NCBI RefSeq assembly: GCF_041260155.1
Contig: NC_091935.1
Location: forward strand, 7,431,501 to 7,495,500
Reading direction: 5' to 3'
Source of the DNA: Ptychodera flava
Taxonomy: Eukaryota; Hemichordata; Enteropneusta; Ptychoderidae
Length of the DNA stretch: 64,000 nucleotides
Shown here: positions 1 to 52,078 of the stretch, one piece after another
Position numbering within the stretch: the stretch's first letter is position 1
How the letters are laid out: each line of letters opens with the position of its first letter
The notes under the pieces: model-generated
Database searches by the model: none
What the model was told of the DNA's origin: nothing
What the model saw: only the letters and a program-made list of their open reading frames with translations
Program-made: the position numbers and the translations under genes

Positions 1-760
1 TCTCAGCAAACCATCCCAGTCCTTTTCCTACAGAAACAATGCAGGTAAATTTAACTCCTCCTTTCATCCAAGAATTTTTCAAAGGAGAGTAGAAAATCAA
101 ATGACAACAGTTCACAGAGTTCAAGTAACACTCCCACATCATCAGATCCCAAGTCTCAATCTCCTTCTGACAAACAGTTTGGTACACTTTCTTGTAATTA
201 TTGTAAGAAAGACGGCCATTTAATGTCAGAGTGTTTCAAATTGAAAAGAAAACGTGAAGGTCAAAGTGGTCAAAGTGGATCTAAGCCAACCGGCTTTATT
301 TCTTCATCAACTCAATTAGAGTCTAATAATGTGTGCAACACATTTTCTGAGGTTAAACCCCTCTCATCCCCAATTAATGAGGTCAAGGTCAATTCTTCTC
401 AAGATAGCATTATGGGTATTTTCGAGCCATTTATTCATAATGGTTTTATATCACTTTCTAGTGATTTCTCTTCCGCTACCCCTGTCAAAATTTAAGAGAT
501 ACCGGGGCTTCCCAGTCTCTTTTGTTGGCAGATACCCTGCCGTTTTCTGAAAAGTCATTTTCAGGTTCTAAAGTTCTTATTAAGGGGGTAGATTGTAATG
601 ACTACATTCCTGTTCCTCTCCATAATGTCTATTTGTCTTCGGACTTTGTTCTGGACCTGTGACTTTAGGTATTAGGCCTTTTTTGCCTTTTGAAGGGATT
701 CACCTTCTTCTTGGAAACGACCTTGCTGGGGACAAGGTCATTACTAATCCACTTGTGACT
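1..760 (+). other. gag nucleocapsid and protease part of the LTR retrotransposon
   Basis: The zinc knuckle reads CNYCKKDGHLMSEC (CX2CX4HX4C), typical of a retroelement nucleocapsid, and is followed by a basic stretch. Further on are the aspartic protease active-site motif DTGAS and, downstream, a hydrophobic LLLGNDLA motif like the second conserved part of retropepsins. This part is a fossil fragment with degraded coding capacity. Confidence 0.75.
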
Positions 761-1019
761 GATAATCCTAGTTTAGATCAAAATCCAGAGCCAATAGAGG
801 AAGACATTCCCGGCCTTTTCCCTTCATGTGCCATTACTCGAGCCATGTCAAAGAAAACTTCCGAGAATCAAAATACTCTCAAAAATAATGTCACAGATGT
901 TGACTTAAATGACACCTTTCTCAGTCAGGTGTTTGACACGGATCATTCCGTTATCCCTCGTGGATTTGAAACTTCCAGTAAAACTTCTGCTGACCAAAGT
1001 CAGACATTTTCTAGATCAA

Positions 1020-2300
1020 ATCTCATTGCAGAACAACACAAAGACCCAGATATTTTGTCTTTGTTTGACAGGGTAGATGATGAAGGTAAAACTTCAGATA
1101 GCTCTGTTTCCTATTATACAAAGTCTGGTATTCTCATGCGTAAATGGAGACCTCCAGATGTTTTGGTTGATGACGATTGGGCTATAAAACATCAAATTGT
1201 GGTTCCAAAGCCCTATCGTGCTGAAATATTGCGCCTGGCCCATGAAACCCCCTGGGCTGGTCACTTAGGAGTCAGGAAAACTTATCATAAAATTCTCAGT
1301 CACTTTTATTGGCCTAATCTCAGGCAGGATGTAGCACATTTCTGTAAAACTTGTCACACATGTCAAATGGTAGGAAAGCCGAATCAGACCATTCCAAAGG
1401 CCCCTTTACAGCCAATTCCTGCATTCCAAGAACCATTTAGTAGGATACTAATAGACTGTGTTGGGCCCCTACCAAAAACAAGATCAGGAAATGAGTACAT
1501 GTTGACAATTATGTGTACATCAACTCGGTTCCCCGAAGCCATACCACTGAGAAATATAAAGACAAAGACTATAGTGAGAGCTTTAGTCAAATTTTTCACT
1601 TTATTCGGCCTCCCTAAATGTGTCCAGTCCGATCAAGGCTCCAACTTTATGTCTGGTATTTTTCAACAAGTAATGGATCAGCTAGGCATTAAACAGTATA
1701 GGTCCTCCGCCTATCATCCAGAAAGTCAGGGTGCTCTTGAGCGATTTCATCAAACTTTGAAAAACATGATTAGGACCTACTGTTTTGACACAGAGAAACA
1801 GTGGGATGAAGGAATTCATTTTTTGCTCTTTGCTGTTAGAGAGTCAATTCAGGAGTCTCTTGGTTTTAGCCCATTTGAGCTTGTATTTGGACATACAGTC
1901 CGTGGCCCACTTAAGCTCGTTAAAGAGAAATTCCTATCAGACGATGATGATTGTCTGAATATTTTGCAATATGTGTCAGATTTTCGTACAAAACTCTCTA
2001 AAGCATGTGAATTAGCCAGAGAAAATCTTGAGTCATCTCAGCAGTCAATGAAAACCAAATATGATAAAAACACCTCAAAACGGAAGTTTGAACCAGGTCA
2101 AAAAGTTCTTGTTCTACTTCCGGTTCCTGGCAAACCACTCCATGCTCGTTACTTTGGGCCATACCTAATTGATAAGAAATTGAGTGATTTAAATTACATC
2201 ATAATAACACCTGACAGGCGAAAACAAAAACAGCTATGTCACATAAATATGCTTAAGCCATATTTGGATAGGGATAATCCTACTATAACTCAGCCTGTCA
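1020..2300 (+). other. integrase domain of the LTR retrotransposon
   Basis: The translated region shows an HHCC zinc-binding module (H..H, then CKTCHTCQ) and a catalytic core with ILIDCVGPLP, VQSDQGSNF and a later E in GALERFHQTLK, giving the D,D,E triad. The C-terminal part has the GPYLI.K/HINMLKPY pattern found in gypsy integrases. Its position before the RT identifies the lineage. Confidence 0.88.
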
Positions 2301-2419
2301 GTGCAGTCAGTTCAAACCATTATGAAGATAGTGATACTGAAACTGACTTGAGTGAAAATACTCTAAACTCAAAGCTGGGCTCGGTCAAGCTTCAGAACTC
2401 AGAAATCCTGGAGAAGCTG

Positions 2420-3810
2420 GAGTCTACAAAGTTGGCACACCTCCAGCCAGAACAACAACAACAGGTGAAAGAACTGCTCCATGAATATAAACACCTGTTT
2501 CAAGATGTTCCAACGAGGACAAACGTCATCTATCACGACGTTGATGTTGGGGACAGTAAGCCTGTAAAACAACATCCATACAGACTGAATCCAACAAAAG
2601 CAAAATATCTCCAGGAAGAAGTCAAATACCTGCTGGACAATGACTTTATTGAACCCAGTAAAAGTAACTGGAGTTCGCCGTGCATACTTGTTCCCAAATC
2701 AGATCACAGTTATCGTATGTGCACAGACTTTAGGAAGGTCAACACTTTAACAAAGACAGACACTTTCCCAATCCCGAGGATTGATGACTGCATCGACCGA
2801 GTGGGAAAAGCCAAGTATGTGACGAAATTTGACCTACTGAAGGGATTTTGGCAAGTCCCTCTGACGGATCGTGCTCGTGAAATATCCGCCTTTGTTACAC
2901 CAGACGGATTGTTCCAGTACAAGGTGATGCCATTCGGAATGAAGAACTCTCCGGCAACGTTCCAACGGATGATCAACGACGTCATATCCGGGCTAGACGG
3001 GTGTGCAGCTTACGTTGACGACGTCGTCCTGTATAGTGACACCTGGGAGGAACACATCAAGCTCATGCGGAAGTTCTTTGAGAGACTGAGTAAAGCAATG
3101 TTGACTGTCAACCTCGCCAAATCTGAGTTTGGTTGGGCGAGGGTAACTTACCTCGGACATACTGTAGGACAGGGTGAGGTAAACCTGTTGATGCCAAAAT
3201 CAGTGCCATTTCAAGTTTTCCCATACCAAACTGCAAACGACAACTGATGCGCTTTCTCGGTATGGCTGGTTACTACAGAAAATTCTGTCCAAATTTCTCC
3301 GCAATTACTGAGCCTTTGACTAACTTACTTAAAAAGAAAGTAAAGTTTGTTTGGTCAGAGCAATGCCAACAGGCATTTGATACACTTAAAGCCATACTGC
3401 AAAGTGCCCCAGTGTTGTCTGCACCAGATTTCACTTTGCCATTCAAATTAGCTGTAGATGCTAGTGATACGGCTGCTGGTGCTGTTTTATTGCAAGAGGA
3501 TAGTCATGGGGTAGATCATCCTGTTTGCTATTTTTCACGCAAATTTAACAAATCCCAGAGAAACTACTCTACAATTGAAAAAGAGTGTTTATCTTTGATA
3601 TTAGCTTTACAGCATTTTGAAGTTTATGTTACTTCTTCAAATCAGCCAATAGTGGTTTATATTGATCACAACCCTCTTGTTTTTCTGCAGAAATTTAAAG
3701 GCAAAAATCAGAGATTGCTAAGATGGAGTTTAATGTTACAGGAGTTTAATCTTGACATTAGACATATCAAAGGCAGAGACAATTTAATTGCAGACTGTCT
3801 CTCTCGTATT
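2420..3810 (+). other. reverse transcriptase and RNase H of the LTR retrotransposon
   Basis: RT motifs visible include SNWSSPCILVPKSD, MCTDFRKVN, FDLLKGFWQVPL, FGMKNSPATFQRM and the catalytic YVDDVVLYS. The RNase H region that follows shows LAVDASDTAAGAVL, YSTIEKECLSLILAL and DHNPLVFL, the expected catalytic-region motifs of gypsy RNase H, and ends in the usual LIADCLSR. No integrase follows, in contrast to standard gypsy order. The unit is not intact. Confidence 0.88.
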
Positions 3811-3970
3811 TAGAAATTATTGTTATTCACTTTCAAGAAATTTTATGTTGTTCACTTTCAAGAAATTTTACTTTAGAGTAAAACAAAATTTGAGTACTTA
3901 AATCCTTTTCAGATAACATTTGTGAAAGAAAGATTTTTCTTTGAAAAATTTTCTTTTTGAAGAGGGGGTG

Positions 3971-4684: not shown

Positions 4685-5361
4685 CTAGGTTGCCTGGTTT
4701 ATATGTTTCCTGATGGTATCAACGATGTCATATCGCTCAAGAGATGACCTTTGTAGTAGTTCTAGAAGATTCTTGACCGTCGCGTGATTATATCTTGACC
4801 ATTCCTGAAGGATTTCACCAGTTGGATTACTCTTCTGATTATATATTTGAACTTGCCCAGCCGTATGTCCAAGTTCACCTTTATGAATGATAATAGAATT
4901 AATCATAATTATATACATCTGGGTTCTTTTGGGTGCAAAATGTAGACAATTTAGTAAATTTTAGAAGGTGACACATGATCACCATCCTTCCTAAAAACTT
5001 CAAAAGCAAGGTCCTTTGTTAAGTCAAAGTGACTTATCTGCCACGCATGCGCCACAGTAAAATGGTCAGTCATGACATGTAGTCATTATCGTCTAGGACA
5101 GTTTCCTACCAACATCACCCCTAGTATTCTCAAACATCCATCGACAACATCACCATCCCTATTACAGGCCCTGACAACAGCTGTTTGACAACACGATACA
5201 ACCATGGATTACTTACCTGCTAGAGATCGCCAATCACCACTCATGCACTTTACATTAAGATGATCACAGATGTCCTGGTAAAGGATTGCTGGCATATCAG
5301 CTATATGAGTCTCAAGCGTTACAGATCGTTGTCCTGGTAATCTTCGATCTACCTCTTCACG
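4685..5361 (-). other. death-domain exons of gene A
   Basis: The 145-nt exon (5361-5217) encodes helices with LETHIADMPAILYQDICDHL and the core GDWRSLAG. The 194-nt exon (4878-4685) encodes ELGHTAGQVQIY, NPTGEILQEW and the final helices to HINQAT and stop. The DWR..A..LG and NPTG.IL..W patterns are those of the death-domain fold seen in UNC5- and ankyrin-type proteins. The same exon pair, with the same phases, is present in copies B and C. Confidence 0.85.
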
Positions 5362-8300
5362 CTGTTATAAAATAATTATATTAAATGTAGAAACATGAAC
5401 TGATATAAGCTACGGCTCTCTTTACGACTTTATAAACAGACGGTACGAAGGAGCTTATTAGGAGTAAGGGCCGGAGGAAATCAAAGCTCAGGTCCATCAT
5501 GCACATTGTGACCCTCCTCCAATACCCCATCTAATCCCCTTTTCAGATTTGTAAAATATAACCTTACCCAGTTCAAAATTTGATAGCTTGACGTGTATAA
5601 CCTAACCAGAACCACTTCGCCTTATAGACTCCAATGTTTACTTCTATGTTCAAAGCCCTTCGTTTGTGCACATGTCACTCGATTATTCTTTGGAATTTGA
5701 CCTTATTTTCCATATTTGCAACATGCTAGGTCTTGCTCTTGTCAAGGTACTAATCTCATAATTAACCCTTACAGAACACACTGCATGGGAACCTGGCACT
5801 TTTGGGTGAAATGTAATATTTTGTGCGCAGATATGTACTGAGTCATGTCAAGTACGTTTATATTTGAAAATAGTAATGCATAATGTCCTATATGTCACAT
5901 AGTCTTTATTAACTCCAAGTTTGGGTTTGTTTGATGCGCACGTATCTATCACAAATTATTGTCGAATGTGTTGTAAATCTTTGATCAAAACATTTAAAAT
6001 TTTTATTCATCGTAAAATTTGCAAATGTAAAATGTTACCCATCCCAGCCTAAGTTCGCAAACTGTGACCCTTCACGAAAGGCAGGTTTGTACAAAATGAC
6101 CCTCCCCAGTCCCTCGGGGGCCCCCTCTCATAATAACTGAAAAATCCTATTTTTTTCTTGATATAACGATAGTCATATTCTTCGGGGTTTCTTGTCGAGA
6201 CAAGAGGAATGTCAAGCCTTTTAAAATATATTAATGACTTGAATGCCTTATGTCAGCTGGTGTACATCACGTGGTAGAAACAAAGTTTTTTTTTCAAACA
6301 AAGTTATTCGTGTCGAATGAAGGAGCAAGAATATAACCATTGCACAAAGACTGAACCATTGGAATATGGAGATATTTGCAATATTTCGTTCTAAAAATTT
6401 AAAACCCGATGAAGAACAAGGTTCCATTCCAATTTTAACTTTAGTGAGTTGGCCGTTAAAAAACACAATCACGCATTAAAATTCCGTGCAAAGCCATTTG
6501 TGGATCGGCTTAGGAATCCTAAAACACTTCTATTCATCAAATGTGACATTAATCTTTATGATTTTAGTTTAATAAGATTGAACGTGAGAATAATTTGAGA
6601 AGAGAAGGGATATCTAACAATTAAGATATTTAGATTCTTTAGGTAATCATTATATACTCATACTCACCGAAGTTGATATAGGATATACAGTTATTGTCTT
6701 GCGTCTACCTTCACACAGTAATTTGAGCTCTGGATTATCATGAAGATTACGACCAGGACTTGCTAGCTCTATGATATGAAGGTAACTGGCGTTCACATAT
6801 TCATCATGGGTCTGGTAAGGACATAGTGTCCCCAGTGTGAATTCCATAAACTTGAAATCTCGTCTTCGTATGATGTGGAGCTGTTCCAAAAGCCACTTGA
6901 GTAAATTTCTAGAATCAACACCAGGGGCTTTTTGGACCGTAACTTTAATCAGATTCTGCTCCACGGGAATGTGACGGACAAGTTGTAGTATGTACGTAAT
7001 GTGGAAGTCAAAGGAAAACTTTGCGATGTCACTATAGACATGTCTCTTCAGGGACGATTTCAAAGCCGTTGGAGACCTCATACAACGAGCCAACAAACGC
7101 CAAAATACAACGTCTGGTAGGAAAGATCCAAAATCGAAATAATAAACATCATCGTCGTCTTGTAAAGTCTGCCATCTTGGCACAGGGTCACATTGGCCAT
7201 CAGTTTCGTAGGCAGGTAGAATACTTGGGACCATGTACAATTCTTCATCGTCGCTGGACTCTCTTGGTATCAGACACACCAGATCATAGGAAAGTAGTAA
7301 GGATAGGGTTATCTCTTTTGATAAACCAACTGAATTGGCAATGTGGTTTATGAGATTGGGGTCTGCAAGTCCTCGCTTTTCCAGCATGTCCCAAGATTTC
7401 GCCAAGAGACGGGATCTTTGATTTCTTGGAGGAATAGTTATCAATACTTTCATCAAACTGACAAGAACGTTCGGATCAAAGATTACGTACTTACTCAGAT
7501 ATTCATCCATAGGTTGATATATTATTTCGCCAGCTTTGTGGAAAAAACAAAGCATTTTTCGAAACTCAGTTTCTTCAACTTGAAGCTGATGTTTTACAAG
7601 AACTTGAACCTCATCATAACTTGAGATTGTTTGTCTGCTTCTGTTTCTCCGCTCATTTATTAGTTTATAAAAGTTCATGAATGTGACAGGAAACTTTTCA
7701 CGCACGTAAGTCGTATTCTCTATTTCTTTCAATATACACCTCTGGAGATTACGAGAATCTTCGTCTAATGGAACTGAATTCTCGACCGAAAAAACAAACA
7801 TGCCGTCAGGGTTTTTCACAAAACGATCACGAAACCTATGTACGTCTAGCTTCTCTGTAAGATAGCCAACCACTTCGGAATGTTGACTTGAATTAATACT
7901 CTCTCGGTGTGTGCCAACCAAAAATATGGCAGTGTCCTGACTCTTCGTGTGGGTACAAATGGAATTTAACCAAAACACAATTCTTTCTAGTTGTTTTTCT
8001 TTGTTCTTAATCGCTTCTTTAAGACTGAAAACCAATAAATAAACAGAATGTTCGGCAATAAATATGTGATGAGTCGAATAATACAACTCTTGACCGGCGA
8101 AATCCCATAAACTGAGGCGAGTTGCAAGGTGCCCCTCTCGTATTTGCTGTCTTATTGCTTCACGCACGTGAACTATAGGAATGGGTTGTAGCTTGACTTT
8201 ACAATATATGTACAGATCTGCAATTGGCTGCGTTAAAACAGAAATCACATAGATGAACAATGACAACGTTGGGAGTCCACGCGATGGGAAGGTCAAACCA

Positions 8301-9529
8301 AGGAAATGGCCGATGACTATCCCGCCCATTAATCCTCCGAGTCTCTTAGGTAAGTACCCAAGACAAAGTGTCAGATTAGCTGCCCTGCCCGAGTTTATAC
8401 CCGAAAATGTACCAATCCAGGCGAAGACACCGAACACGAAATGGATTGCTAGATAGTGAACAGTAGGAATGCAAGCCAAAAGAGAAATTAAAACCATCGA
8501 AAGTGGTAAGAAATTTGCGAGGGGGCACTTCGCGTTTAGTTTATGCCTATAGGTGTACAACATGCAACCGCAAGCAAACCCTAGGAACATGAATGGGTGA
8601 GCCATTTTGTGTGACGATACAGTGGTGTCGTCAGTAACACTGTCGGAGATCTTATCATTGGCCACATTTGTTGCTGGCATAAGCATGCACAACCCCCAGG
8701 CCATGCCATTTCTGATACCAATACCGTAAGACACCCCGAGGGCGTAGCCTACCGCATAAAATGTCCAATGGTACATCATCATACAAAGAATATGCAGAAG
8801 AGTTGATGCCTGGAAGTAAGATTTCAAGACACCACAGACAAGGTCATCAAAATATCCACAGATACTTGAGGATTCTTGAAGATTAAGTGTAAGATATGCT
8901 GAGATGGCAAGACCAGTACCGTAACGGTACATGATCATGAAGTCGCCACTCCAAATTAGACAGCACAGATAACAAGTTAGCTGGAAAAGTCCATACCCAT
9001 ATTGTAGTCTCGCTTTCTCAATAAAAAAGAACGGTATAAGAGAGAAAAGGAAAAACCTTGCAACCACTTTGACAGTCTTCTTAAATGGCCATTTCAAAAA
9101 GTTTAGCGATTCTTTAGCTGTAATATCAGGTTTGTTCGACTGTTCCTTGAACATTGTTTTCGATGATAGAATTGCACCTTCAGCTGTACACCAAGACACA
9201 CACCTCTCAAACTCATCCGAAGTCGACGTCTTACATTCTTTCCATCTGGAGTCTACATCTTTGGTTTCATACATCTTTGTTTCAATTCCTTCAGTACTTG
9301 GTTCATCTGTTTGAAACTTTTCGCCAGTCAAGAGACGCAACAGACTGGTTTTGCCAACTCTTCCATCGCCGACAAACATAACTTTACTTCGATTGAATGG
9401 TAGTTTGCCGCTGTGTTTGTACTTCTCGTAGAGTTGTTTCACTTCATCGTCGTGTGCTAGCGCTCCAAAGTTGTAGCATCTCCCATATTTTGGAGATCCA
9501 TACAGCATCGCTTGTAATTTGTTCGACAT
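4685..9529 (-). CDS. gene A: ROCO-type GTPase with inserted polytopic membrane domain and C-terminal death domain
   Basis: Three coding exons: 9529-6668, 5361-5217 and 4878-4685; 1066 residues. Donor CTTCG|GTGAGT joins acceptor AACAG|CGTGAAG in phase 0, and GCAG|GTAAGT joins AAAG|GTGAACTT in phase 1. Residues 50-120 hold the P-loop GDGRVGKTS (54-62) and switch I STEGIE. About 150-445 are 8-10 hydrophobic segments. The GTPase resumes at 455 with RLSLWDFAGQ (G3, 476-480) and FLVGTHRE (G4). COR covers about 610-900. A death domain (about 980-1062; DICDHLNV, GDWRSLAGELG, NPTGEIL..W) lies on the two short exons. The G4 position that is normally Asp is Glu. The ATG at 9529 is chosen because copies B and C start at the same point, 23-30 bp after a splice acceptor (here at 9553). 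An upstream noncoding exon is likely but not found. Role in membrane-linked death-domain signalling is inferred. Confidence 0.87.
5362..6667 (-). other. first coding-region intron of gene A (1306 nt)
   Basis: Bounded by the GTGAGT donor at 6667-6662 and the AACAG acceptor at 5366-5362. I see no further exon, known repeat or RNA gene inside it. Confidence 0.8.
8195..9082 (-). other. membrane-domain insertion within the Roc GTPase of gene A
   Basis: About 296 residues (150-445) contain roughly 8-10 hydrophobic stretches, for example VARFFLFSLIPFFFI, LFQLTCYLCCLIW, LPLSMVLISLLACIP and TLSLFIYVISVLT. They lie between the switch I part and the DFAGQ of one GTPase domain, in the same uninterrupted exon, so no splice event removes them. 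Motifs shared with copies B and C include DFMI.YRYGTGL, YHWTFY, RNG.AWGLCML and WIGTFSG. I do not recognise this membrane block as a known transporter or receptor family. Confidence 0.8.
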
Positions 9530-9552
9530 GATCTTGGCTCTTTTTTCAAATC

Positions 9553-10544
9553 CTATAAGACATAAATTGCACCAGTAAGGCATAGATAATGCCACTTTTG
9601 AAAATATCATGGCGCCACAATTGCCTCAAACATTATCAAGTAAATGTTTGCATATCACTGAGACGGTGTTTGATGTTAGACTACAGATTTAGTTCATAAA
9701 TTTTGTGTGATATTTCAGCTAAGTGATTATTGCGGGAAACGGGAACTTAGACCGAGCGCAGCTCACTAATATATCGCTCCCTTCCAAGGAGGAATTTTTA
9801 TTTCTCAGTAATGACAAATTTATATTTACTTTTTAAGTCACAACAAGATTTGAACCACTTTGGGGAGAATTGGATCTTTTAATTGTTCAAATTTATGGAG
9901 GTTGAAAGTTGCAATATTACAAAATACCCATGAAAAACAAGTATATTTGCAAAAAAAGCAGATGAGCTTACATTTGCAGATGAAACCAACATTAATCGTG
10001 TTTAACGTAGTCCAGGTTTACTCAAATGTCACGCTGATTGCAATTTGATGGCTCGATACGAAGAATTTGTGATTTGTAAATAATTTGTGGATCCTTCAAA
10101 CTTATACAATTGCAGTACTTTTATTACTACCTTTATTACAATCTACGTTGTGATACATCACGCGGCCTTAACCTATCAGGGTTACTTTGTAAGTAATATA
10201 AACGAGCATCATTTCTAATCTCTGTTTACATGTATTATACATTTTAAGGGTTACGTATGGGCCAAATTAGCTCTACTGTGTGTAACACACAGATCTGCCA
10301 CGCAGAGCTGGGGCCAGACGGACGTGTTACTCAAATGCTGCTTGTGGTATTTTGAGACTGACTATATGTCGTACCTGGTGTTCACACAATACTAGTCGGG
10401 TAAATAGAGTCAGTGAAGTTAATTGGCCAGGCAATTGTTGTTCGGCACAGTGCAGGAAAGACCCAGTGAATTGTAGAGAATTAGGTACTGTGTAATTTCC
10501 AAGATCTCATACAATCAATTGTTTTCCAAAAGATTAAATATACA
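9553..10544. other. upstream region of gene A, no gene seen
   Basis: It follows the acceptor-like sequence tgtcttatag in front of gene A's first coding exon on the minus strand. The equivalent spots in B and C also end in pyrimidine-rich sequence plus AG. A promoter or 5' noncoding exon probably lies here or further out, but none can be recognised. Confidence 0.4.
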
Positions 10545-13500
10545 AAATTGACAGGTATACATGTAAACAACAAGTGTGCCTCATCCTACACACTTTTAAC
10601 GCATGTCACGTCGTGAGTCCGAACAAATTCAGCGCAGTTAGTTTTGAAATACTACCTACTAAAGAAAACTCAATAAATATGCAAAGTAGTGATAACCAGT
10701 GTGCCATTCCTATCAAACTTTCAGTGAAGTTGAACCTTCATACCATCCCATCCAATTCATTGCACACAGTGTCGATGTACGATGGCCTAATCACTAAAAC
10801 CAGTCTGACATTCACGTCAGATCATAATCCGCAATGCTCCACTTTCTGCATAACTTAACCTAATCATAACCAAAGAATCTATTCAGTATGGTGAACTTCA
10901 GTGCAGTGACTCGTGGTAATGTCCTGATTATAGAAGGAAATGTAGCTAATGAATAGACGGACACACCAACCAAACGTTCACTTCGTGACACTTTAGTGAC
11001 ATAAACTCACAGCAGAGTCAGGAGAAATTTTACTATGGGCTGAGAGAGATTTCACATGATAGCGCTAATTACAAACAACAGTATTCGATTAGCTTCCTAT
11101 AAAATCAGCGAAAAATGGATTGCCTGGTATTTAATGACAGCTCTCAGGTATAAATGATGGAATGTCGAGGCAGTGTTATGAACAAATGCAAAGCTGAAAT
11201 AGCCTTGGTTTTTTGTGGTTATGCTGAAATCAGATCGAATTCAGAGCACTCAGTCTGGATATATAATCATGGCCTAATTAGTAAATATGTCGAACATTCA
11301 CATGAGTTCATATATCCGCCTCGTTCAACTTTTTGCATAGGAAATTCGGATTGTGTACACGTGAAAGCGTTCTGGTCTCGGCACAGCCTCGACATGGCTG
11401 AGCACGCGATGCTCCATAGAAAACGAAACTGCTGACGACATTCAGTGAGTCATAGACGAGCGGATGTGCCATCGATACTTTGAGAAGTTCGTTTACATTT
11501 CCCATACAGATATTCCAAGATGAAACAAAGAAGGGTTGAAGCGGACTTGAAATATGAGTAAGCGGACACAGAACGTAATATCAGTACAGAATGACCAGGC
11601 TGAGATATGTTGAATTGCCCGCAGTCATCCGTCAACGCCCTTTGTTGTCAGTTGACATTCTATTATTGTTCTCAAATCAATGGAGCTGTATCAGTTGCTT
11701 GGTCACTTGTTTTCTTGTTCCGGATACCGCCATGTCACGATGAAAGTATTCAGTACCCTTATCTATGGCCAATAATTTAGATTGACAAAGAAAGATATAT
11801 ATGTTTGTTGTTAAAAGGCAACACTGGATGTTAGGAGTGTCCTCACGACACGGATTTTTAAAGTCCAGTAATAAGAGATCTGTTTAAATGTTTATTTTTA
11901 AGACGTTTCTACTTAGAATACAGGAAATGCTGACCACTTACGCGAAGAGCCGTCGCAAAGTGGTGAACAGTACTAAGACTGCTGTCTTCAATTTCATTTG
12001 TCCTTGGTGAACTCTTGGTTTACTTGATCTTTCTACAGATTTCGATAATTTATAAATAATACCATTTTATTAGATTGTCCAGGAGTTCATTCTGGTTTCG
12101 ATGTCTGCTACTTGTGTGTATTTAAATGACGAGAAAAGTGAATTTGATATCTACTCTGCCTCCTTTGGTCAAACGCAAAGATCACAGGAAGTATCTACAA
12201 CAATTCACTGAGCTGACCTTTGTTCATTGTCAGGCTAAAAGCCTTGGCCTCATCTCACCCTTAACTCCTGGCTCTCAATAAGGACTAACGTTAGACAGAC
12301 CTGCCGTTTCGATACGTTTCACTTTTGTCGTACATAAACGCTCACTCGAAACCCGGATGTTCCCATTCAAATCAATGCGCTTATTTGCACTCACATCGAG
12401 GCATGTAATAAAAGGGCGGAGAGTTACCCAAACCAAATACCTTTCTTTACTTTGCCTGGTCATTTTGTACTGATATTACGTTCTGTGCCCGCTTACTCAT
12501 ATTTCAAGTCCGCTTCAACCCTTCTTTGTTTGATATCCAATATCTCAGATTTTGTAAAGACACCACCATTTACGGACAAGACTAAAAATATGCACCATAT
12601 AATCGAGAACCTCTGGCAAGTCGCCTTGAACTTATTTGACACTCGATGTCAAGGTTGCGAACTTCCAAAGTAAATTATCGTGAGAGTAATAAATATGACG
12701 TAAAATGGTAAACGTACTTGAAACCAATATGTTAAAATGCCAAGAATAGCCTTCTCATTCGCTTGATCGCTGTGTGTTAGATACAGTAAACGGAGTTTTT
12801 GAGTTTTCTTGTAAATAAAACGGCAGTCATGCAAGCAACAAATTAGCAGACATTGTTGCTCAAACTCTCGTAAAAAATTGTGTAGAACCCTCTCTAGAAG
12901 CCAGCGATGCCCTTCGTTCTTTATTTTGTCTGACACTGTACAGTGTTGAATTAGCTCTCATTATGTTAGCCACGCCAGGTTAATCTGATCAAGTGGAGCG
13001 AAAGTTACCATGTCTATTGTGATAGATGAAAATCTCCGACTAGTCGGGGTAAATTGCTAAATTCGTCATTGTGTGAAACTATAAAGTTTGCGAGGTGAAA
13101 TCTTTCGAGTCCAGGAACGTCAAATGGTTCACCCTCTGATGCTGTGCAATGTTTTGTTTAAATTTTACGCAAGGCCTCGTTGATACATTTTCTTTGTCAA
13201 TAGTGTAAAGGTCGGTTTTCATTCCTTATCCTTATTCCCCACATAACATATATCAGTGATATCAAGCATCTATTAAAAATAACTTCGATTTCTCTTTACG
13301 CAGTTGCATTAGTACGTACTCAGTGACTTGATACCACATGCCATTGCCATTTCCGGAACCTACACTGCCTCATACACGCTTAGCTCGCTCGAACACACTA
13401 CTAAGCATGATTATCTAGGCTAAGCGTCACAAAGACAGCTTTGTCACGTACAACTAATGTCAAGAGTTCCGGTTTGAAACTTTTCATCTCATAAAGATGA

Positions 13501-14159
13501 ATACGTATATATTGAGTATTACTCAGTTATTTCCTTCTGCTTCTGTTTTTACAATGCGCGAATCAAAAATTAATTATTTCGGATGCCCTTTCATACGACA
13601 ATAGGAAAGATCTAGCCACGAATTCAAGTTCAGTGAATCAGTAATTGGTTCAGAGGATTTGAAACCCGTGGATGGGTTCAAGATTACAGAAAGTCACTTA
13701 CCTTATCCGTACTCCAGAGATGTTTTCGATGTTCTAAATAAGCTTGCTGTAGTAACAAATGGCTACAGTCCAATAGTGTTTCCACCGAGTCGGAAATGAT
13801 GTCACAAAAGCTCATATAACGACCCCTTCCCTCCCTGTGACAGTTAAAGCCCGGGGCGAAATGGACCGGGATCCGGACGTTTTGGGGCATGGCTCTGCAT
13901 AATGAGTCTGTTGGTAACAGTTGCTATCGTGCGCATCATCTGCGTAATCTGTTTGCTCTCAAATCACGCTCTGACTATAAACTTAGGTACAGTCTTCGCA
14001 ATATGCGAAAGAAAAAAGAAAGAAGGAAAAAATATCAATTTCATAAAAACAGGAGCGTGCTGAGTTGATCTACCGAAGTTTTTGCTGTGTTGATTTACAG
14101 AAGTTTCGGGGTCATGTCATCGTTCGAGAATGATTCGGCTACTGCACATAACTAATGAG

Positions 14160-15190
14160 GTATGAGTAAATTTGTAAAATAGGGGTCAAAGGTCATCCTT
14201 GTCGCCTGATTTTGTGTCGAAAATCTTTGCACCATACCTATCCATTGTACCAAAATTTAGACCACAAGCTCATTTGGCTAGCCCAGAATTATATATGCAC
14301 ATAATTAATGAGGTACAAATTTTGCGTCATAAGGTTCCCGTCCTACCAAATATGAATGGTGTAGCACTTACAGTTACTCATTAATAGGTATATATGCATA
14401 TTGGAGGTCAAAGGTCATCGAGGTCACTTGACATTAAAAAAAAAACTTTGCTCCCATAGTTATCGCTACCTACCAAAAATTGGACCTCTAGCTCAATTGG
14501 CTAGCCTAGAATTAGATATGTGCATAATTAATGAGGTACAGGATGTGGCATGATAATGCCCCCCACCACACCTAATATGAAGGGTGTAGTCCTCGTGGTT
14601 ACTGATTTGTGGGCAAAAAAAATGTATATTTGAGATCATAGGTCATGGAAGTCACGTGACATTTGGGCAAAAAAAATACAGCTTAGTTATCCCTGTGTAC
14701 CAAAGTTCCTCTTGCTCTATTGGCTAGCCCACATTTAGATATTTAGATGTTCATATAATTAATAAGGTACAGAATGTCGTGTCATAAGTTCCCAACCATA
14801 CCAAATATGAATGGTGTAGCACTTGTAGTAACTCATTTATAGGCATAGATGTATATTTGAGGCGAAAGGTCATCGAAGTCACGTGATTTCTTGTCAAAAA
14901 ACTTTGCTTCCACAGTTATCCCCTGCGTACCATAAATTGGACCTCGAGCTCAATTGGCTAGCCCTGAATTAGATCTGTGCGTGTGGCATGATAAGGTCCC
15001 CCACATACCAAATATGAAGGGTGTAGATCTCGTGGTTCTGATTTGTGGGCACATATGTATATTTAGTATAGCTAAGTTATCCCTATGTACAAATATCAGA
15101 CCTCTGGCTCTGTTGGCTTGGCGAGAATTATATACACGCATAATTCATGAGGTACAGAATAAGAATTCTGTGTCATAAATTCCCCGTCCT
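14160..15190 (+). repeat. pearl-like tandem repeat family 1, array 1
   Basis: Diverged monomers repeat the phrases attaatgaggtacag, cataaggtccc, accaaatatgaagggtgtag, gaggtcaaaggtcat, cacgtgacattttgtc and ctctattggctagcc. Monomers are roughly 225-240 bp. The orientation is the same in all arrays of this family in the window. Confidence 0.8.
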
Positions 15191-17189
15191 ACTATGAATG
15201 GTGCAGCACAAAAGGGGGATTATGGTAAGACTATGCAGATGTGAAAAAGCCACGCTACGGGTAAGACGCACTCGATTTGCTCCGAGATTTCCAGAAATTC
15301 GACGGGTGAACGGCGTTGATTTCCGTCCAATCTCATACATGACACCTGTGAATGTATAGCGACTGCCTTTATGTCGAAAAAACGTTGAAAAACACTGTTA
15401 TTTAATACAGAGAACGCATATTTTCACAAAGTGTGGGTCCAGAATGTCCATTTGACCTCTGTTCTAAATGTTAATGTATGCTGCCAATCATGATTACTCA
15501 AATTCAAATTGCGGCCTGGGCGATCTTGATCCCTGCCGAGCACAACAAACAAAGCGTACTGACTTATCACTAAAATCACCGTTATGTACCTAAACACACG
15601 CATACACAACCACATACAACGTAAACGATACGACACATGTAATGAACACGCAAGAAACGGCATTTTCTTTTTGGAGTGATTGGTGGTCTTGAAAAAAAAC
15701 GTTTTGTAAATTGTATGTGTTCCTGTAAAAAGTTATGAACATTGAGAGTCTTCACACGTCGTTTTGAAGGCAATCACAATTTCATTTTTCCTTCAGGCAT
15801 CGAAACTGAATCTTTTGACTCACATTTTGAGGAAGTACCTTTAGCATTGTGACAAGTTTGGTCATGTTTATATCAGTTGATTCAATTCAGTTGAGCTGAG
15901 TGGAATTGAAATTTCAGTGTCGATTACATCGTTGCCACTATTGCGTTGTAGATCGATCATCCATGATCATCCATACTCGAGTACTCATCGACGACGACCA
16001 CGGCCCTGCACAGCTGTCCTGGGGGACTCATCAGCGTCATTTACTTTCTTTACCAATGTATTTCAAAATATTTGGCTGACCATTGTCACAGATTACTAGT
16101 AGTTTCCTTTTGTTGAAGATTCTGGCTTACACATCGGAACAGCAAGCAGCGTACATGTATGTATAGTATTCAAATATGCAGGCTCATCTATGGAACTACG
16201 GCAACTTTTCCACAACGTCTCAGTCACATGTCACATTTGCATATTACGAATGGTCGTCGATGTTTTCCGAGGTTACCTATCCGAGGTAACCGGATATGCA
16301 ATCTGCGCTCACTATACTTCGGGTCATGCATACCAAACTCTAAACTGGGGGTCGTAACGTTTTAAATCAGTTTGACTCAAAATTTCTTCACCCTTTCCTC
16401 TGATTTGTTCGAAATGCCAAAATTACACGGAAAATAAGCTTACGAATGGGTGAAGATTTGTTTTCAAATTCACAAGTTTTTTTTCCCGTTGCAAGCTGCG
16501 TGTAACCCGGCCGTGCGAAGTACCAGTGACCGGCTATCTACATCACTGCCAACCAAAAAAGCCATAAAGCTACAAACAGTAGAAGGTTCTAACTTACGAT
16601 TGCTTACGATCACAATCTGCTACCGTCCTTAGAGACTATCATCTATTTGCTAGACTTTCCCCTTATTTTTTATATGTCTAGTTTGCGCGCTTGTACCGAG
16701 CACGAGATGTTCAGGGCTAGATTTAAACTCAATACAGTGCCCGAGGAAATTCTCTCCTGAACTAAGTCAAGACCTTCGTTTTCTATCTTCCTTCCGAAGC
16801 CCGTAATACTATGTCCATTTCAACTACTGGCTTCAATCACAGCGCCTTCACATTCAAATCACCCGCTGCTGTTGTGAGAAAGTATCCGTTCTGTGTTGAT
16901 GAAAGCCGGGGTTGAAACCAGGGGGTTGAAAACCGGGTCCCGTTTGAAATCGCAACGGAATATGCACACATCTACTTAGACGCAAAAAGGTTAGCAGAAA
17001 TTCAGAGATGTATTGAAAGCCATACACCGTTGCTGTTTATTGAGCAAATTGTATGATGGAAATTCGTCTCCGAACTCGGCGATACATGAGCGGCCATTCT
17101 GTTTCATAACTTCCTATACATGTATTTCTATTGCATACCACAGCGGTCATCGCATCGCTGTCTATCGAACCGCAAAACGACTGTGATTT

Positions 17190-17325
17190 GAATTCAGTAA
17201 ATTTTGATTGGATTCGAACTCACAACGTACGGCATACAGTCACCTTAGTAGCGAAGAAATCACAGTCAAGGAAGGTCTGTCGACCAGACCACAGCCCCTC
17301 GACCAGTACCCCACCCTAGTTATAA
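17190..17325 (-). mobile_element. tRNA-derived SINE fragment
   Basis: On the minus strand there is an A-box-like TGGTCGAGGGG and a B box GAGTTCGAATCC, with CCGTACGTTGTGAGTTCGAA between them and the 3' side. The segment resembles the tRNA-like heads at 27516-27604 and 27841-27929 (CCGTATGTTGTGGGTTCGAA), so all belong to one family. The tail is not defined. Confidence 0.55.
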
Positions 17326-20799: not shown

Positions 20800-20808
20800 G
20801 TTGACCCC

Positions 20809-26590: not shown

Positions 26591-29500
26591 TTATGACATT
26601 TCTTCTTGCGATTCTTGGTTGATGTGTTCCCTAATGATACAAACGATGTCATACCGCTCAAGAGATGGCCTTTGTAGTAGTTCTAGAAGATTCTTGACAT
26701 TTGCATGATGATATCTTGACCATTCATTAAGGATTTCACCGGTTGGATTACTCTTCCGACTGTATATTTGGACTTGCCCAGCCGAGTATCCAAGTTCACC
26801 TTTATAGGAAAAAAGATGACCACAATCATATTAAACAATTTGTTTGTAAAAAAGACTATTGAAACGGGCTAAAATATAAGAAAGCTGAGCAAGACCTCCT
26901 CATCAAATCTTCTGACATAAAGTCAAGTGCTCGACCAGCGCGACTCCTTTGCAAACACAGGTGTCACAGTGACGTTCCAATCGATGTAGCCATCACCATC
27001 ATAAAACAATGCAACAGGTACTATCAGCTCCCCTTGCCCATTGCTCTCTAAACCATCACCAACCCCACCACTGTCACTGACAATAGCCATCGGACAACGA
27101 CATACGACCGTGAAATACTCACCAGCTAGAAATCTCCAATCACCTCTCATGTGTTCAACATTGAGATGATCACAGATGTCTTGGTACAGAGTTGGTGGCA
27201 TATCAGATATGCGAGTCTCAAGCTTTACAGATACTTGACCTGGCAACCTTTGATCACTCTCTTCACGCTGGCACAAAACAACAATAATATTAAATTTGGG
27301 CTTCTGTATGTAAAGGCCCTCTTAATGACCCTCATAAATTAAAATCACTTTGTTTATCTAAACATGGTATATTATAATTTTATGACCTTGTAATTGCAAG
27401 TTACATGCTAAGGTAGAAATACCAAGAATATGGTTTATGCTTTAGCACGAACAAAATTGTAAAGGTGAAGTGTTTGCGGTTGACTGTACATCGTTTTTGA
27501 AATATAAATGTTGAATTCGGATAGTTTTCAATCGGATTCGAACCCACAACATACGGCATCAGTCGCCTAGCTGAGAGGCCACAGACAGAACCACTCGGCT
27601 AAATCTCCACTCCAAAAAAGAGTGGTTCAATAGCCGGCTAAGTTGTTACATTTTTCTGACTGAGACCGCTCAACACGTTGTAGAGTTCGTGAAGCACTCA
27701 CGCACGCATGCTCACTATCATACATCGCACATGCACACTTTATCGAAGCGAAGAAACGAATTTCATCGCTTTAACTGGGCGAACGATAACCTCGGGGACA
27801 ATTCTGTCCACCAGCAGTGTTACCTACCCAGGGTAGAAAATTCGGATAGTTTTCAATCGGATTCGAACCCACAACATACGGCATCAGTCGCCTAGCTGAG
27901 AGGCCACAGACAGAACCACTCGGCTAAATGTTGAATTCGCTGAGCTACTTAAAATCAAAGGTAGATAGTAAAATGGGAAAACAATTGAGAAAAGGATTTC
28001 TCCAGCAGTTTCATTCTCCTATCCTACAATTTTACAACAATGGTACGACAAGTATTTCAATTCTTTGGACAAAAACCTAGGTAACACTCATATATGTAAA
28101 CTCACCGAAGTAAACACAGGGTACGGAGTTAGTATCTTCCGTCTACCTTCACATAACAGTTTGAGCCTTGGATTATCTAGAAGTTTTCCACTGTGACTTG
28201 TTAGCTCTATGATATGGAGGTGTTTTGGGTTCTCATATTCTCCATGGATCTTGTACGGGCACAGCATTCCCAGTGTGAATTCCATAAACTTGAAATCTCG
28301 TCTTCGTATGATATTCAGTTGGTCCAAAAGCCACTGGAGCAAACTTTTAGAATCAACACCAGGGGCCTTTTGGACCGTGACTTTTATCAGATTCTGTTCA
28401 ACAGGTATGTGATGGACAAGTTGGAGTATGTATGTGATGTGACGGTCAAAAGAAAATCTTGCGATGTCACTGTAGGCGTGTCTCTTCAGTGATGATTTCA
28501 AAACTGTTGGAGACTTCATGCAACGAGCCAACAAACGCCAAAAAACTACGTCAGGTAGGAAAGATCCAAAGTCAAAATAATATACGTCATCGTCATTGTG
28601 AAAAGTCTGCCATCTTGGCATGGAGTCACATTGGCCATCAGTTTCGTAGGCAGGTAGAATACTCGGGACCATGTACAATTCTTCATCGTCGCTGGACTCT
28701 CTTGGTATCAGACACACCAGATCATAGGCAAGTAGTAAGGCTAGAGTTAGCTCTTTTGATAAACCAACTGAATCGGCAATGTGGTTTATGAGATTAGGGT
28801 CTGCAAGTCCTTGCTTGTCCATCTTGTCCCAAGATTTGGCCAAGTGACGGGATCTTTGACTTCTTGGAGGAATAGTTATCAAAACTTTCATCAAACTGAC
28901 AAGAACGTTGGGATCAAAAATAATGTATTTACTTAGGTGACAATCAAAAGGTTGATATATAATTTCGCCTGCTTTGTGAAAAAACGAGAGCATATTCCGA
29001 AGCTCAATTTCTTCAACTAAAAACTGATGTTTTACGAGGACTTTAATGTCTTCATAAAGCGATATTGCTTGTTTGCCACCGTTTTGAAATTTACGTTCAT
29101 TGATTAGTTTGTAAAAGTTCATGAATGGTACAGGAAACTCTTCACGCACGTACATCATATCTTCTATTTCTTTCAGTATACACCTCTGGAGATTATGAGA
29201 ATCTTCGTCTAATGGAACTGAATTCTCGATTGCAAAAACAAGCATGCCGTTAGGGTTTTTCACAAAACGATCACAAAGCCTGTATATAGATAGCTTCTCC
29301 GTTAGATAGCAGGCCACTTCAGAACGTTGCCTAGAATCAATGCTATTTCGATGAGTACCAACTAAAAATATGGCAGTGTCCTGACTCTCCGTGTGGGTAC
29401 AAATAGAATTTAGCCAAAACACAATTCTTTTGAGCTGTTTTTCTCTGTCCTTTATGGCGTCTACAAGACTGAATACCAATACATAAACTGAATGTGCAGA

Positions 29501-30973
29501 AATGAAAACATGATGCATTGAATAATACAACTCTTGACCGGCAAAATCCCATAAACTGAGACGAGTTGCAAGATGCTTGTCTCCTCGTATTTGCTGTCTT
29601 ATTGCTTCACGCACGTGAACTATAGGCATGATTTGTCGCCTGACTTTACAATATATGTACAGATCTACGAAAGGCTGCGTTGAAACAGAAATCACATACA
29701 CAAACAGAGATAATGTTGATAGGCTGCGCGATGGTAAGGTAAAGCCAAACAAATAACCAATAGTTATCCCGATCAGTAAACCCCCAAATCTCTTTGTTAG
29801 ATATCCGAGACAAAGTGTAACATTTGCTGTTCTTCCCGAGCCTATACCTGAAAAAGTGCCAACCCAGATAAAGGTACCGAACACGACATAGATAGCTACA
29901 TGTTGAATTGTAGGGATGCAAGCTAGAAGAGAAATACACACCAACAGAGGGGAAAGGACTTTTGTTGATGCAAAAGTCGCTTGTAATTTATACCTGTACA
30001 TGTAAATTAGGCAACCAAATGCTAATCCAAGGAAAATAAAGGGGAAACCTATTTGGTAAGACAAGACGTTGGTGCTGTCATTATACCACAATATATCAAT
30101 TTGAAGGCTTATGTTTCTTGCGGGCACGAGCATACATAAGCCCCAGGCAACACCATTCCGAAAACCAATACCACAGAATGCACCAACAGCGTAGCCAACC
30201 AAATAAAATGTCCAGTGGTACATCATCATACAGAAAACGTGGGGAATTGATGATCGTTGGAAGTCATATGGCAAGACACCATTGACAACATCATGTATAA
30301 GAGAATATTTACTTGATGAATATGCTAAAGTTGCAACATATGTCAATATGGTAAGACCAGTACCATACCGATATGTGATCATGAAGTCATTACTCCATAT
30401 TAGACAGCAAAAATAACAAGCTAATTGGAGAAGGCCGTAACCATATTCCCCTGTAATTTTCTCAAGGAAACAGACCAGCAATAGTCCAGGAAAGAAAAAC
30501 TTTGTGAGAACTTTAATAATTTTCCAAAAAGGCCAGTTTATGAAGTCCATGGATTCTTCGCCTCTGATATCACATGTTGTTGATCGTTCCTGGAAGGGTG
30601 TTTTCGACGCTTGAATTGCACTTTCAGCTGTACACCAAGACGCACACCTCTCAAACTCATCTGAAGTCGACGTCTTACATTCTTTCCATCTGGAGTCTAC
30701 ATCTTTGGTTTCATACATCTTTGTTTCAATTCCTTCGGTACTAGGCTCATCGATTTGAAACCTTTCACCAGTCAAGAGACGCAATAGACTAGTTTTACCA
30801 ACCCTTGCATCACCGACAAACATAACTTTACTTCGATTGAATGGTAGTTTACAGTTGTGCTTGCAGTTCTCGTAGAGATTTTTCACTTCATCGTCATGTG
30901 CTAGTGCTCCAAAGTTGTAGCATCTCCCATAGTTTGGAGATCCATACAGCATCGCTTGTAATTTTTTCGACAT
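26591..30973 (-). CDS. gene B: ROCO-type GTPase with inserted polytopic membrane domain and C-terminal death domain
   Basis: Three coding exons: 30973-28106, 27267-27123 and 26799-26591; 1073 residues. The splice sites and phases equal those of gene A (CTTCG|GTGAGT, GGCAC..CAG-type acceptor CCAG|CGTGAAG, GCTG|GTGAGT, AAAG|GTGAAC). Order: P-loop GDARVGKTS, switch I STEGIE, polytopic block (about residues 150-446), LSLWDFAGQ, FLVGTHRN, COR (EEFPVPFMNFYKLINE onward), then a death domain (LYQDICDHLNV, GDWRFLAGELG, NPTGEILNEW) ending HINQESQEEMS. The G4 specificity position is Asn rather than Asp. In the first 120 residues I count 12 differences from gene A; the membrane block is clearly more divergent. 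The full frame is open, so this copy looks functional. An AG acceptor about 22 bp before the ATG suggests an upstream noncoding exon. Function in membrane death-domain signalling is inferred. Confidence 0.88.
27520..27925 (-). mobile_element. dimeric tRNA-derived SINE in an intron of gene B
   Basis: Two identical 89-nt tRNA-like heads (27516-27604 and 27841-27929, including flanking bases) lie in the same orientation. Each has an A box (TAGCCGAGTGGTT) and a B box (GGTTCGAATCC) on the minus strand. The whole unit is flanked by an exact 14-bp direct repeat, aaatgttgaattcg (27506-27519 and 27926-27939). It lies in the first intron of the gene B coding region. Confidence 0.85.
29636..30526 (-). 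other. membrane-domain insertion within the Roc GTPase of gene B
   Basis: The insertion site is the same as in gene A. Hydrophobic segments include KFFFPGLLLVCFLEKI, LLQLACYFCCLIW, IPHVFCMMMYHWTFYLVGYA, PLLVCISLLACIP and YVVFGTFIWVGTFSG. The stretches between YRYGTGL and MYHWTFY and after CMLVPARN differ strongly from gene A, while the motifs around them are kept. Confidence 0.8.
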
Positions 30974-50014: not shown

Positions 50015-52078
50015 CTAGGTTGCCTGATTGATGTGTTCTCTGATGGTATCGACGATGTCGTATCGCTCAAGAGATGGCCTTTGTAATAGTTCAAGAAGAT
50101 TCTGACCGACGCGTGATTATATCTTGACCATTCCTTAAGGATTTCACCGGTTGGATTACTCTTCCGACTGTATATTTGGACATGCCCAGCCGTATGCCCA
50201 AGTTCACCTTGATGGACAAAAAAACGATAAAAATCATTTCAATACGATTTCTATTCAGGGGAAAACTGGAGAAGACGAGTCAATATTACAGAGGTAAACA
50301 TCACTCTCCTACAAAATTTCAGAAGCAAAGTCCAGTGCGCGACCGGCGAGGCTGGTGTGCCACAACAGTTTTAACGGGAAAGCTCCATCGCCATCATAAA
50401 ATAAGGTAACTGGTTCAGTCAGCTGCACATCCCCTGTCCCTAAAAAACATCCCCGCCACAATCACCTACACCATGGGTGTACTTACAAGAGCCTATCATC
50501 ATAGACAACTCACCGGCCAGAAATCTCCAATCACCTGCCATGAAGTCAACATTGAGATGATCACAGATGTCCTTGTAAAGGATTGCTGGCATTTTAGATA
50601 TGTGAGTCTCGAGCGTTACAGAAACTTGTCCAGGTGAATTGGGATCGATCATGTTGTCCTGTTACACAATAAGAATAATAATTAAAAAAGTTGTCAAAAT
50701 ATTTAAAGTTGTTTTCGTTTATGTACAGAAGACATTAATATTCTTCTGGGTTTTCTTACCTGAAGAAGGTAAATAATAGTGTTTGCTATTTTTTACGCAA
50801 TAGCAGGGTTCTCCCTTGATTGGCGACTTAAAGCCCTAGTCATTTAGAATACCAATCACTGAAAAGAAACATGCACTTTAAATAAACGTCCCTGCTGGTT
50901 GTTTTCATCAAACAACCAGCAGGGACACACACTCTACCAATGCCCATGCCAGAAAAAGTACCGATCCATATGAAGATACCCAACACGACATACAAAGCTA
51001 GACTTTGAATCCTAGGGATGCAAGCCACAAGAAAAATGAAGATCAACAAAAGCCGTAGGTCGTTTGTGAATGCAAACATCACTTCTAATTTATGCCTATA
51101 CGTGTTCAATAGACAACCAATTGCTACCTTAAGGAAAATCAAGGGAAACCCAAGTTGGCAAGACGAGACATTATCGCTGTCACTATACAATACAGGCATT
51201 TTATCTAAGGTAACGTTTCTTGAGTATACAAGCATACATAAACCCCAGGCATCACCATTTCTAAAACCGACACCATAGGATACGCCAATAGTAAGGCCGA
51301 CCCCATAAAATGTCCAGTGATATATCATCGTAGAGAGAACGTGTGTAAGAGATGATGATCGGAAGTATGATTGCAAGACACGACAGAAAACATCATTCAA
51401 AAATGCACGTTCCCATGAAGAATACATAAAATAATTTGCAATATATGTCAATATGGCAAGACCAGTACCATATCGGTATGTGATCATGAAGTCATTACTC
51501 CATATTAGACAGCAAAAATAACAAGCTAGTTGGAGAAGGCCGTAACCATATTCCACCGTAATTTTCTCAAGGAAAGAGAACAACAGCAGTCCGAGAATGA
51601 AAAACTTTGTAACAACTCTGATAATTTTCCTCAATGGCCATTTTATGAAGTCCAAGGATTCTTCGCCTCTGATGTCACATTTTGTTGATCGTCCCTGTAA
51701 CGTTGTTTTCAACGCTTGAATTGCACTTTCAGCTGTACACCAAGATGTACACCTCTCAAACTCATCTGAAGTCGATGTCTTACATTCTTTCCATCTGGAA
51801 TCTACATCTTTGGTTTCATACATCTTTGTTTCAATTCCTTCAGTACTAGGCTCGTCACTTTGAAACTTTTCGCCGGTCAAGAGACGCTGTAGACTAGTTT
51901 CCACAACCCTTGCATCACGTACAAACATGACTTTACTTCGATTGAATGGTAGTTTTCCACCTTGTTTGCACTTCTCGTAGAGATTTTTCACTTCACCGTC
52001 GTGTGCTAGTGCTCCGAAGTTGTAAGATCTCCCATAGTTTTGAAATCCGAAGATTGTCTTTTGTAATTTGTTCGTCAT
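50015..52078 (-). pseudogene. copy C: degenerate ROCO-membrane-death-domain gene
   Basis: The large exon starts at the ATG at 52078 and matches A and B for about 382 residues, then homology stops near 50933, inside the membrane block just after WIGTFSG. The second half of the GTPase (DFAGQ, G4), the COR region and the large exon's end with its splice donor are missing. The P-loop is RDARVVETS instead of GDARVGKTS, so the invariant Gly and Lys are gone. The death-domain exons survive at 50658-50514 (145 nt, good GT/AG sites) and 50207-50015. The last exon is 193 nt rather than 194 because one A is missing in the VKNLL region, which shifts the frame. The large frame runs on about 30 codons past the break to a stop at 50840. 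The membrane block is closer to B than to A. A truncated membrane protein from the surviving exon cannot be excluded. Confidence 0.85.
50888..50926. repeat. perfect 17-bp hairpin at the copy C deletion junction
   Basis: GTCCCTGCTGGTTGTTT, a 5-nt loop (tcatc) and AAACAACCAGCAGGGAC lie immediately next to where homology to genes A and B stops (about 50933). Such inverted repeats often mark a deletion or repair junction, or a small foldback insertion. Confidence 0.85.

Follow-up and report, generated by a model that had tools for sequence, protein, structure and literature searches.

The 64,000-nucleotide stretch of the Ptychodera flava genome considered here (contig NC_091935.1, positions 7,431,501 to 7,495,500; "the window", to which the DNA comparisons are confined) carries two related genes, A and B, and a pseudogene-like third copy, C. 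By tblastn of the Ptychodera flava protein P0001, genes A and B have three coding exons each, all on the minus strand, with inner ends that are approximate. In gene A, a stop-to-stop open reading frame at 6650-9625 on the minus strand contains the first coding exon (9529-6668), which P0001 matches at 100% identity across its 954 residues. This exon encodes the N-terminus, a Roc-type GTPase domain that is interrupted by a hydrophobic block, and a COR-like region. A Death domain is encoded by the two further exons, starting in exon 2 (5212..5361) and completed in exon 3 (4688..4879). Gene B repeats the layout, with exon 1 at 28106..30973, its hydrophobic block at 29666..30523 by alignment with gene A, exon 2 at 27118..27279 (ends approximate) and the Death domain in exon 3 at 26594..26800. 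Exon 1 of both genes ends at a GTGAGT donor. Copy C, aligned on the minus strand at 50909..52078, keeps residues 1-390 with a degenerate P-loop and most of the block; the part from G3 through COR is gone, and remnants of the Death-domain exons lie within 50018..50649 (at 50506-50649 and 50018-50208). The gene bodies of A and C are 74% identical.

The order within exon 1 is G1-G2 of Roc, about 290 mostly hydrophobic residues, then G3-G5 and the COR-like region. In gene A the first Roc half (residues 43-98, 9236..9403, from the Pfam Roc/Ras match and motif positions) contains beta1, the G1 P-loop GDGRVGKTS at residue 54, the G2/switch I motif STEGIE at 78 and beta2, with an invariant tryptophan, W96, near its end. 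An entry linker follows (residues 99-150, 9080..9235), of which the first part is conserved in the family alignment (E108, W113, T115) and the second is variable. The membrane block itself, of about 10 hydrophobic segments, occupies residues 151-437 (8219..9079); the interval first noted, 8195-9082, corresponds to residues 150-445. An exit linker (residues 438-466, 8132..8218) with K444, V445, R456 and P451, the last invariant across the family, leads to the second Roc half (residues 467-605, 7715..8131, from Pfam Roc/Ras and an LRRK2 alignment), which contains beta3, G3 WDFAGQ at 475, G4 VGTHRES at 538 and G5 around 581. The COR-like region takes up residues 606-954 (6668..7714). The first-pass annotation had described a single open exon running from the P-loop through the hydrophobic stretch to DFAGQ in both genes, and this holds: there is no in-frame stop between G1 and G3 of gene A, and gene B has the same layout. 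As a separate observation, A, B and C each have a 16 bp unit present as two tandem copies in their coding sequence, close to where beta2 ends (9254-9284, 30698-30728 and 51803-51833), within a 74-base stretch that is identical between genes A and B.

Pfam Roc matches genes A and B in two separate stretches each. When the two halves of gene A were joined in silico, leaving out block and linkers, they gave one Roc match covering profile positions 1-117 of 119, at 85.4 bits as against 73.2 for the split sequence, in keeping with the first-pass proposal that G1/G2 and G3/G4 are parts of one Roc domain. In the Roco structure 4wnr the two halves match at 46.8 and 27.6 bits and lie 2 residues apart, where the family profile has a gap of 379; in LRRK2 chain 9cho the matched parts are 4 residues apart (842 to 847; the offset to chain 7lht makes these about 1384-1389 in full LRRK2), the first-half match to LRRK2 being weak by itself (8.4 bits). 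Since the halves nearly adjoin in 4wnr and LRRK2 and are so far apart in the family profile, these alignments place the insertion site at the turn of the interswitch hairpin, between beta2 and beta3; the strand names are ones that we assign to gene A by analogy. About 375 residues separate beta2 and beta3 in the family, of which some 290 form the hydrophobic block.

Relatives were sought with two whole-protein searches, in each of which the 8000 best word-sharing candidates were scored. At least 21 ambulacrarian proteins were recovered: 14 from Ptychodera, 13 of them probably on one chromosome, one from Glandiceps, and, from crinoids, three each from Antedon and Anneissia. Of the 21, P0007 is missing its first Roc half; the other 20 have both halves and, without exception, the block, which is thus present in two hemichordates and two crinoids, representing two phyla. 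The best-scored candidates listed include nothing from sea urchins, starfish or Saccoglossus, which is no proof that these animals lack the family. A Roc-core tree of 52 rows puts the 20 block proteins on one side of a branch whose support, 89, is below the program's star level.

The premise of the first-pass annotation that Roc domains are soluble and continuous proved too strong. Among 40 other relatives, 21 carry soluble inserts of about 100-400 residues at the same hairpin, 13 have none, and six were left uncounted: P0034, whose G3 match looked false; P0047 and P0054, without both motifs; and P0055, P0056 and P0058, with extra length before switch I. The 21 inserts reach a top 19-residue mean hydropathy of 0.96. 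All 20 membrane-type proteins have a tryptophan early in the insert, as do 15 of the 21 with soluble inserts; its counterpart occurs in 3 of the 13 without an insert. It appears from these comparisons that the bundle was probably placed inside an older soluble insert; the simplest reading would have this happen before the hemichordate-crinoid split, or later with transfer. Inserts inside the Roc domains of brown algae have been published (PMC11378527). One of the soluble-insert relatives, P0057 (1861 amino acids), whose insert is about 400 residues long, has a precomputed caspase domain (PF00656), a further tie between this Roc group and cell death. PADLOC gave no match for gene A or P0016; P0025 matched nine of its families across kinase and TIR parts (best 7.6e-17), and P0041 matched weakly (0.0098).

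Hydropathy and topology were followed in 19 proteins, with P0021 left out. That protein, from Anneissia, is the most divergent member, with three extra residues within the G3 strand and a hydrophobic N-terminus, oddities that are perhaps an annotation error. The family-mean hydropathy shows 10 peaks across residues 139-446, the fourth and fifth overlapping as 19-residue segments. Mean hydropathy is +0.87 in the block; before it the value is -0.83, and the two values for the sequence that follows are -0.19 and -0.25, although residues 447-800 also contain three hydrophobic stretches. A topology calculation gave 10 segments in 18 of 19 proteins at the loosest threshold, 10 in 14 proteins and 8 in five at the middle one, and 10, 8 and 6 segments in 6, 12 and 1 proteins at the strictest. 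With the N side fixed inside, a C side inside was preferred in 19 of 19 at all three thresholds. Charge placement points the same way, with 6.7 lysines plus arginines per protein in predicted inner loops and 3.1 in outer ones; the inner count is the higher in 18 of the 19 proteins, with one tie. Two acidic loops (222-249 and 285-306) are predicted to face outward. Both GTPase halves are therefore predicted to be cytoplasmic, as the first-pass picture of two cytoplasmic segments flanking a membrane bundle had it.

The block is coding and under purifying selection. Between genes A and B, residues 144-446 (302 codons) give a nonsynonymous rate (dN) of 0.296 and a synonymous rate (dS) of 0.941, a ratio of 0.31 (0.23-0.43), and differences over residues 139-446 (307 codons) number 99, 58 and 130 at codon positions 1, 2 and 3, with one codon gap in the block. 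For the first 98 residues dN/dS is 0.17. A constitutive intron over the block is excluded by its dN/dS, the third-position excess and the single codon indel in about 300 codons, and also by protein-level conservation in two phyla. A chimera of assembly or annotation is likewise excluded, by the presence of the block in 20 of 20 proteins with both halves, in four species. RNA-seq and Iso-Seq went into the published Ptychodera gene set as a whole (PMC11175523).

Synonymous divergence sets the block apart from what surrounds it. Where A and B encode the same amino acid, the codon used is different in 14% of cases over residues 1-143, in 44% over 144-446 and in 21% over 447-954 (Fisher 5e-9; fourfold sites alone, 1.3e-3). 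A scan of A against B that was blind to the block found a raised segment at residues 129-427 (47% against 19%; 0 of 200 permutations), close to the block edges. For A against C a synonymous change point falls at residue 125 (1/500), and for B against C there is a weak one at residue 242 (23/500). The GC content at third codon positions differs little between block and flanks (0.37-0.46 in A, 0.36-0.38 in B) and so is unlikely to be the cause of the raised dS. At E 1e-3, A and B could be aligned in their exons alone, with nothing aligning in introns or flanking DNA. The synonymous jump near the block edges indicates that the block evolves as a module: either the GTPase halves have been homogenised by gene conversion, or blocks have been exchanged. 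Trees of block and flanks were mostly unresolved for five close paralogs, and no discordance was established.

The family profile aligns to LRRK2 residues 1379-1613. The Death domain of gene A (PF00531, 4e-9) is above cut-off, its closest PDB sequences being p75NTR and MyD88, and a Death domain was matched in 13 of the 20 family proteins. No kinase and no leucine-rich repeat (LRR) was matched in gene A, in which Roc begins about 43 residues from the N-terminus.

Genes A and B are best explained as integral-membrane ROCO-type GTPases in which a bundle of about 10 passes is set into the Roc hairpin. We put the probability of this explanation at roughly 0.6. The chain would leave the cytoplasmic G domain after switch I, make an even number of passes, and return to complete the same G domain with G3-G5 before entering the COR-like region and the Death domain. 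The bundle would serve as a sensor or ligand-binding module, and its movement would be passed through the partly conserved linkers to the interswitch hairpin, where a change would alter the nucleotide state, and with it the turnover of GTP, or the dimerisation of Roc-COR. Death domains act by clustering, and in hemichordates their clustering might then start a signal for cell death or immunity. Of this picture, the sequence itself bears out where the insertion lies, that it codes, that it is conserved and in what order the domains come, with both halves predicted to be in the cytoplasm; a single folded G domain, its GTP turnover, the sensing, the coupling and an output through the Death domain are inferred. 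A toggling interswitch is described for Arf (PMC3012027, PMC12554972); in Ras the beta2-beta3 loop belongs to switch III, is tied to membrane orientation and moves with nucleotide state (PMC7694788). Roco proteins are reported to shift their oligomeric state with nucleotide (PMC6337361), and a part in immunity has been discussed for invertebrate ROCO proteins that also have TIR and Death domains (PMC9334734). A bolder and quite tentative version would have receptor and G protein in one chain, the 10-pass domain binding a ligand and acting as its own exchange or activating factor. An outside signal would flip the nucleotide switch and, in hemichordates, assemble Death domains, with a sensor cassette that diversifies and a switch kept uniform by gene conversion, like an immune receptor array.

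A number of results weigh against this explanation, or against parts of it. Segment counts are not clearly above those of composition shuffles: gene A gave 7 segments, against a shuffled mean of 6.5 (479 of 1000 shuffles as high), and the family mean of 9 was reached in 194 of 2000. The exact number of helices is therefore unsure, and the membrane assignment rests on overall composition, charge placement and conservation. For the entry linker (residues 99-143) the dN/dS of 0.52 (0.25-1.27) has an interval that includes 1, and residues 89-138 show no third-position excess. The block does not clearly stand out as the most divergent part when paralogs are compared within the sets P0010-P0012 and P0013-P0015. 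COR-A in gene A scores 22.2 of 35.3 bits, below the curated cut-off; at E up to 0.01 it is matched in 15 of 20 family proteins and in 1 of 6 from crinoids, and the COR region of gene A alone matched nothing in PDB at E 1. Within the family, Death domains were found in hemichordates alone, and because none of the six crinoid proteins matched one, Death-domain output is not general. Of the 20 proteins, 9 keep the aspartate of G4; gene A has E in its place and gene B has N, while 5 of 6 crinoid proteins also have E, and guanine binding may be altered by the change. Lastly, the Arf toggle is said to be special to Arf and is stated to be absent from Ras and G-alpha (PMC12554972), and a relay in CtRoco has been reported to run via switch II (PMC6337361); for these reasons an interswitch relay in Roc is unproven.

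Among competing explanations, the one that survives best is that the bundle is a passive anchor, merely fixing an ordinary Roc-COR-Death protein to the membrane by way of a loop that tolerates inserts. The soluble inserts that relatives carry at the same site imply that much is tolerated there, and the block is the least conserved large region of the protein, with 18 of 287 columns conserved at 90%. A single helix would suffice for anchoring, however, where about 10 passes are present. Four charged residues of the block (R202 and R382 in 20 of 20 proteins, D196 in 19, R273 in 18) and many glycines have been kept from hemichordates to crinoids, which suggests a structured function, and the linkers too are partly conserved. 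Y201 and Y392 are further conserved positions in the block. We consider a passive role unlikely.

Control might instead run the other way, from the inside out, with the bundle a transporter or channel and the GTPase its regulatory gate. The number of passes, the charged residues of the bundle and its GxxxG-type motifs are typical of transport proteins, and the interswitch is a plausible gate linkage. No credible match supports such an identity, however. Searched alone, as the first-pass annotation had proposed, the block found no relative: no protein reached E 10 or better among 6481 word-sharing candidates (confined to proteins of about 170-540 residues), the best E values were 1.4 among PDB sequences and 0.16 in Pfam, and NCBIfam and PHROGs returned weak single-member matches alone (best 0.015 and 0.019). 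No internal 5+5 repeat was detected in the block when one was sought, and the hemichordate Death-domain output suits signalling better. A transporter or channel under GTPase control is accordingly a rather improbable reading.

The GTPase halves might also have ceased to bind nucleotide and persist as scaffold or dimerisation parts. The replacement of the G4 aspartate in genes A and B would fit this, as would the lost P-loop of copy C. Against it stand the G1 GKTS, the G2 threonine and the G3 DFAG, which are conserved in 20 of 20 family proteins, and the purifying selection on residues 1-98 already noted. We regard a pseudo-GTPase as decidedly improbable. As to the Roc assignment itself, Pfam Roc detects all 20 proteins at E up to 0.01, above cut-off wherever member scores are shown, and G5 is present in most members (P0020 is cut short and P0009 differs); with NCBIfam, P0001, P0016 and P0025 gave the small-GTP model alone, below its cut-off. 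It may be added that G4 differs within Ptychodera: P0001-P0005, which make up the array of gene A, have E or N, P0006 and P0008-P0015 have D, and nucleotide preference may vary among paralogs.

Very improbable is the proposal that a working isoform splices the block out as an exonic intron, leaving a normal and continuous Roc. The splice-like sites do include one in-frame GT-AG pair, which gene B shares with gene A at matching positions and which is not simply a chance expectation, as an equally good one arose in 36 of 500 shuffles of gene A among synonymous codons, but selection and an intact reading frame extend across the block, the donor-encoded residues are not kept in other family members in the protein alignment, and no block-less form with both halves is found among the 21 ambulacrarian cluster representatives listed.

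The rest of the window offers some observations in their own right. Intergenic stretches upstream of gene A (10545-25795) recur upstream of copy C (52800-64000), many at about 79-96% identity, although the genes themselves, A and C, are only 74% identical. Arrays that resemble satellite DNA, whose units measure about 223-226 bp and about 147 bp, lie at 14267-14980, 19032-19693 and 56848-57874, and at 35118-37104 and 58782-60013. In a retroelement at 626-3813, read along the plus strand, the integrase comes before reverse transcriptase and RNase H. Rfam and tRNA scans found nothing.

Small GTPases normally reach membranes via lipid tails, recruitment or flanking anchors. Here a membrane part is apparently threaded through the catalytic fold itself, at a loop known in Ras and Arf to move with nucleotide. 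If the two are coupled, these proteins would be single-chain receptor GTPases and a simple system in which to measure how membrane conformation drives nucleotide exchange. From the arrangement it seems that an entire membrane bundle can be accommodated between the switches of a G domain, a property usable by protein engineers, and it adds an orphan membrane domain family common to hemichordates and crinoids. The literature searched, with most subscription papers and all bioRxiv preprints outside the search, showed no GTPase whose G domain contains a polytopic membrane domain, which agrees with the first-pass statement that no characterised protein of such design was known.

Several known systems bear comparison. 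The AIG/GIMAP-type GTPases of a snail have 1 to 3 predicted membrane segments, Death-type domains in some, and a suspected immune role (PMC7053062). They belong to another GTPase family, their segments are few, and placement inside the G domain is not indicated in the available text (PMC7053062). The ROCO proteins (LRRK2, MFHAS1 and the archaeal and bacterial Roco) share with gene A the Roc motifs G1-G5, of which G4 is altered in gene A, followed by a COR-like region, and LRRK2 and Roco are its best PDB matches; gene A differs in having no LRR or kinase match, in the membrane bundle within its hairpin, and in being predicted to be integral to the membrane, not recruited to it. The DAPK1 group of ROCO also joins Roc-COR to a Death domain, but no kinase was matched in gene A, and DAPK1 is not known to have a membrane bundle. 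The soluble-insert ROCO proteins of eukaryotes, such as the kinase-Roc-COR-Death-TIR protein of Nematostella (P0025) and the bivalve proteins with Death domain and Roc-COR (P0027, P0028), have an insert in the same hairpin, often the tryptophan at its start, and Death domains in several cases; their inserts, unlike the block, are hydrophilic (no 19-residue window above 0.96) and make no membrane passes.

Outside the ROCO family, P-type ATPases and transmembrane adenylyl cyclases assemble cytoplasmic catalytic parts from segments on either side of membrane helices; these are not GTPases, and the fold divided is a different one. G-alpha subunits have a soluble helical domain inserted in their Ras-like G domain before switch I, and so resemble gene A in carrying a large insert in such a domain, whereas here the insert follows switch I and lies in the membrane. 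Arf and Ras proteins are not known to have a transmembrane part. Yet the Arf interswitch toggle and Ras switch III involve the same hairpin, and in both it is tied to membrane attachment or orientation (PMC3012027, PMC12554972, PMC7694788).

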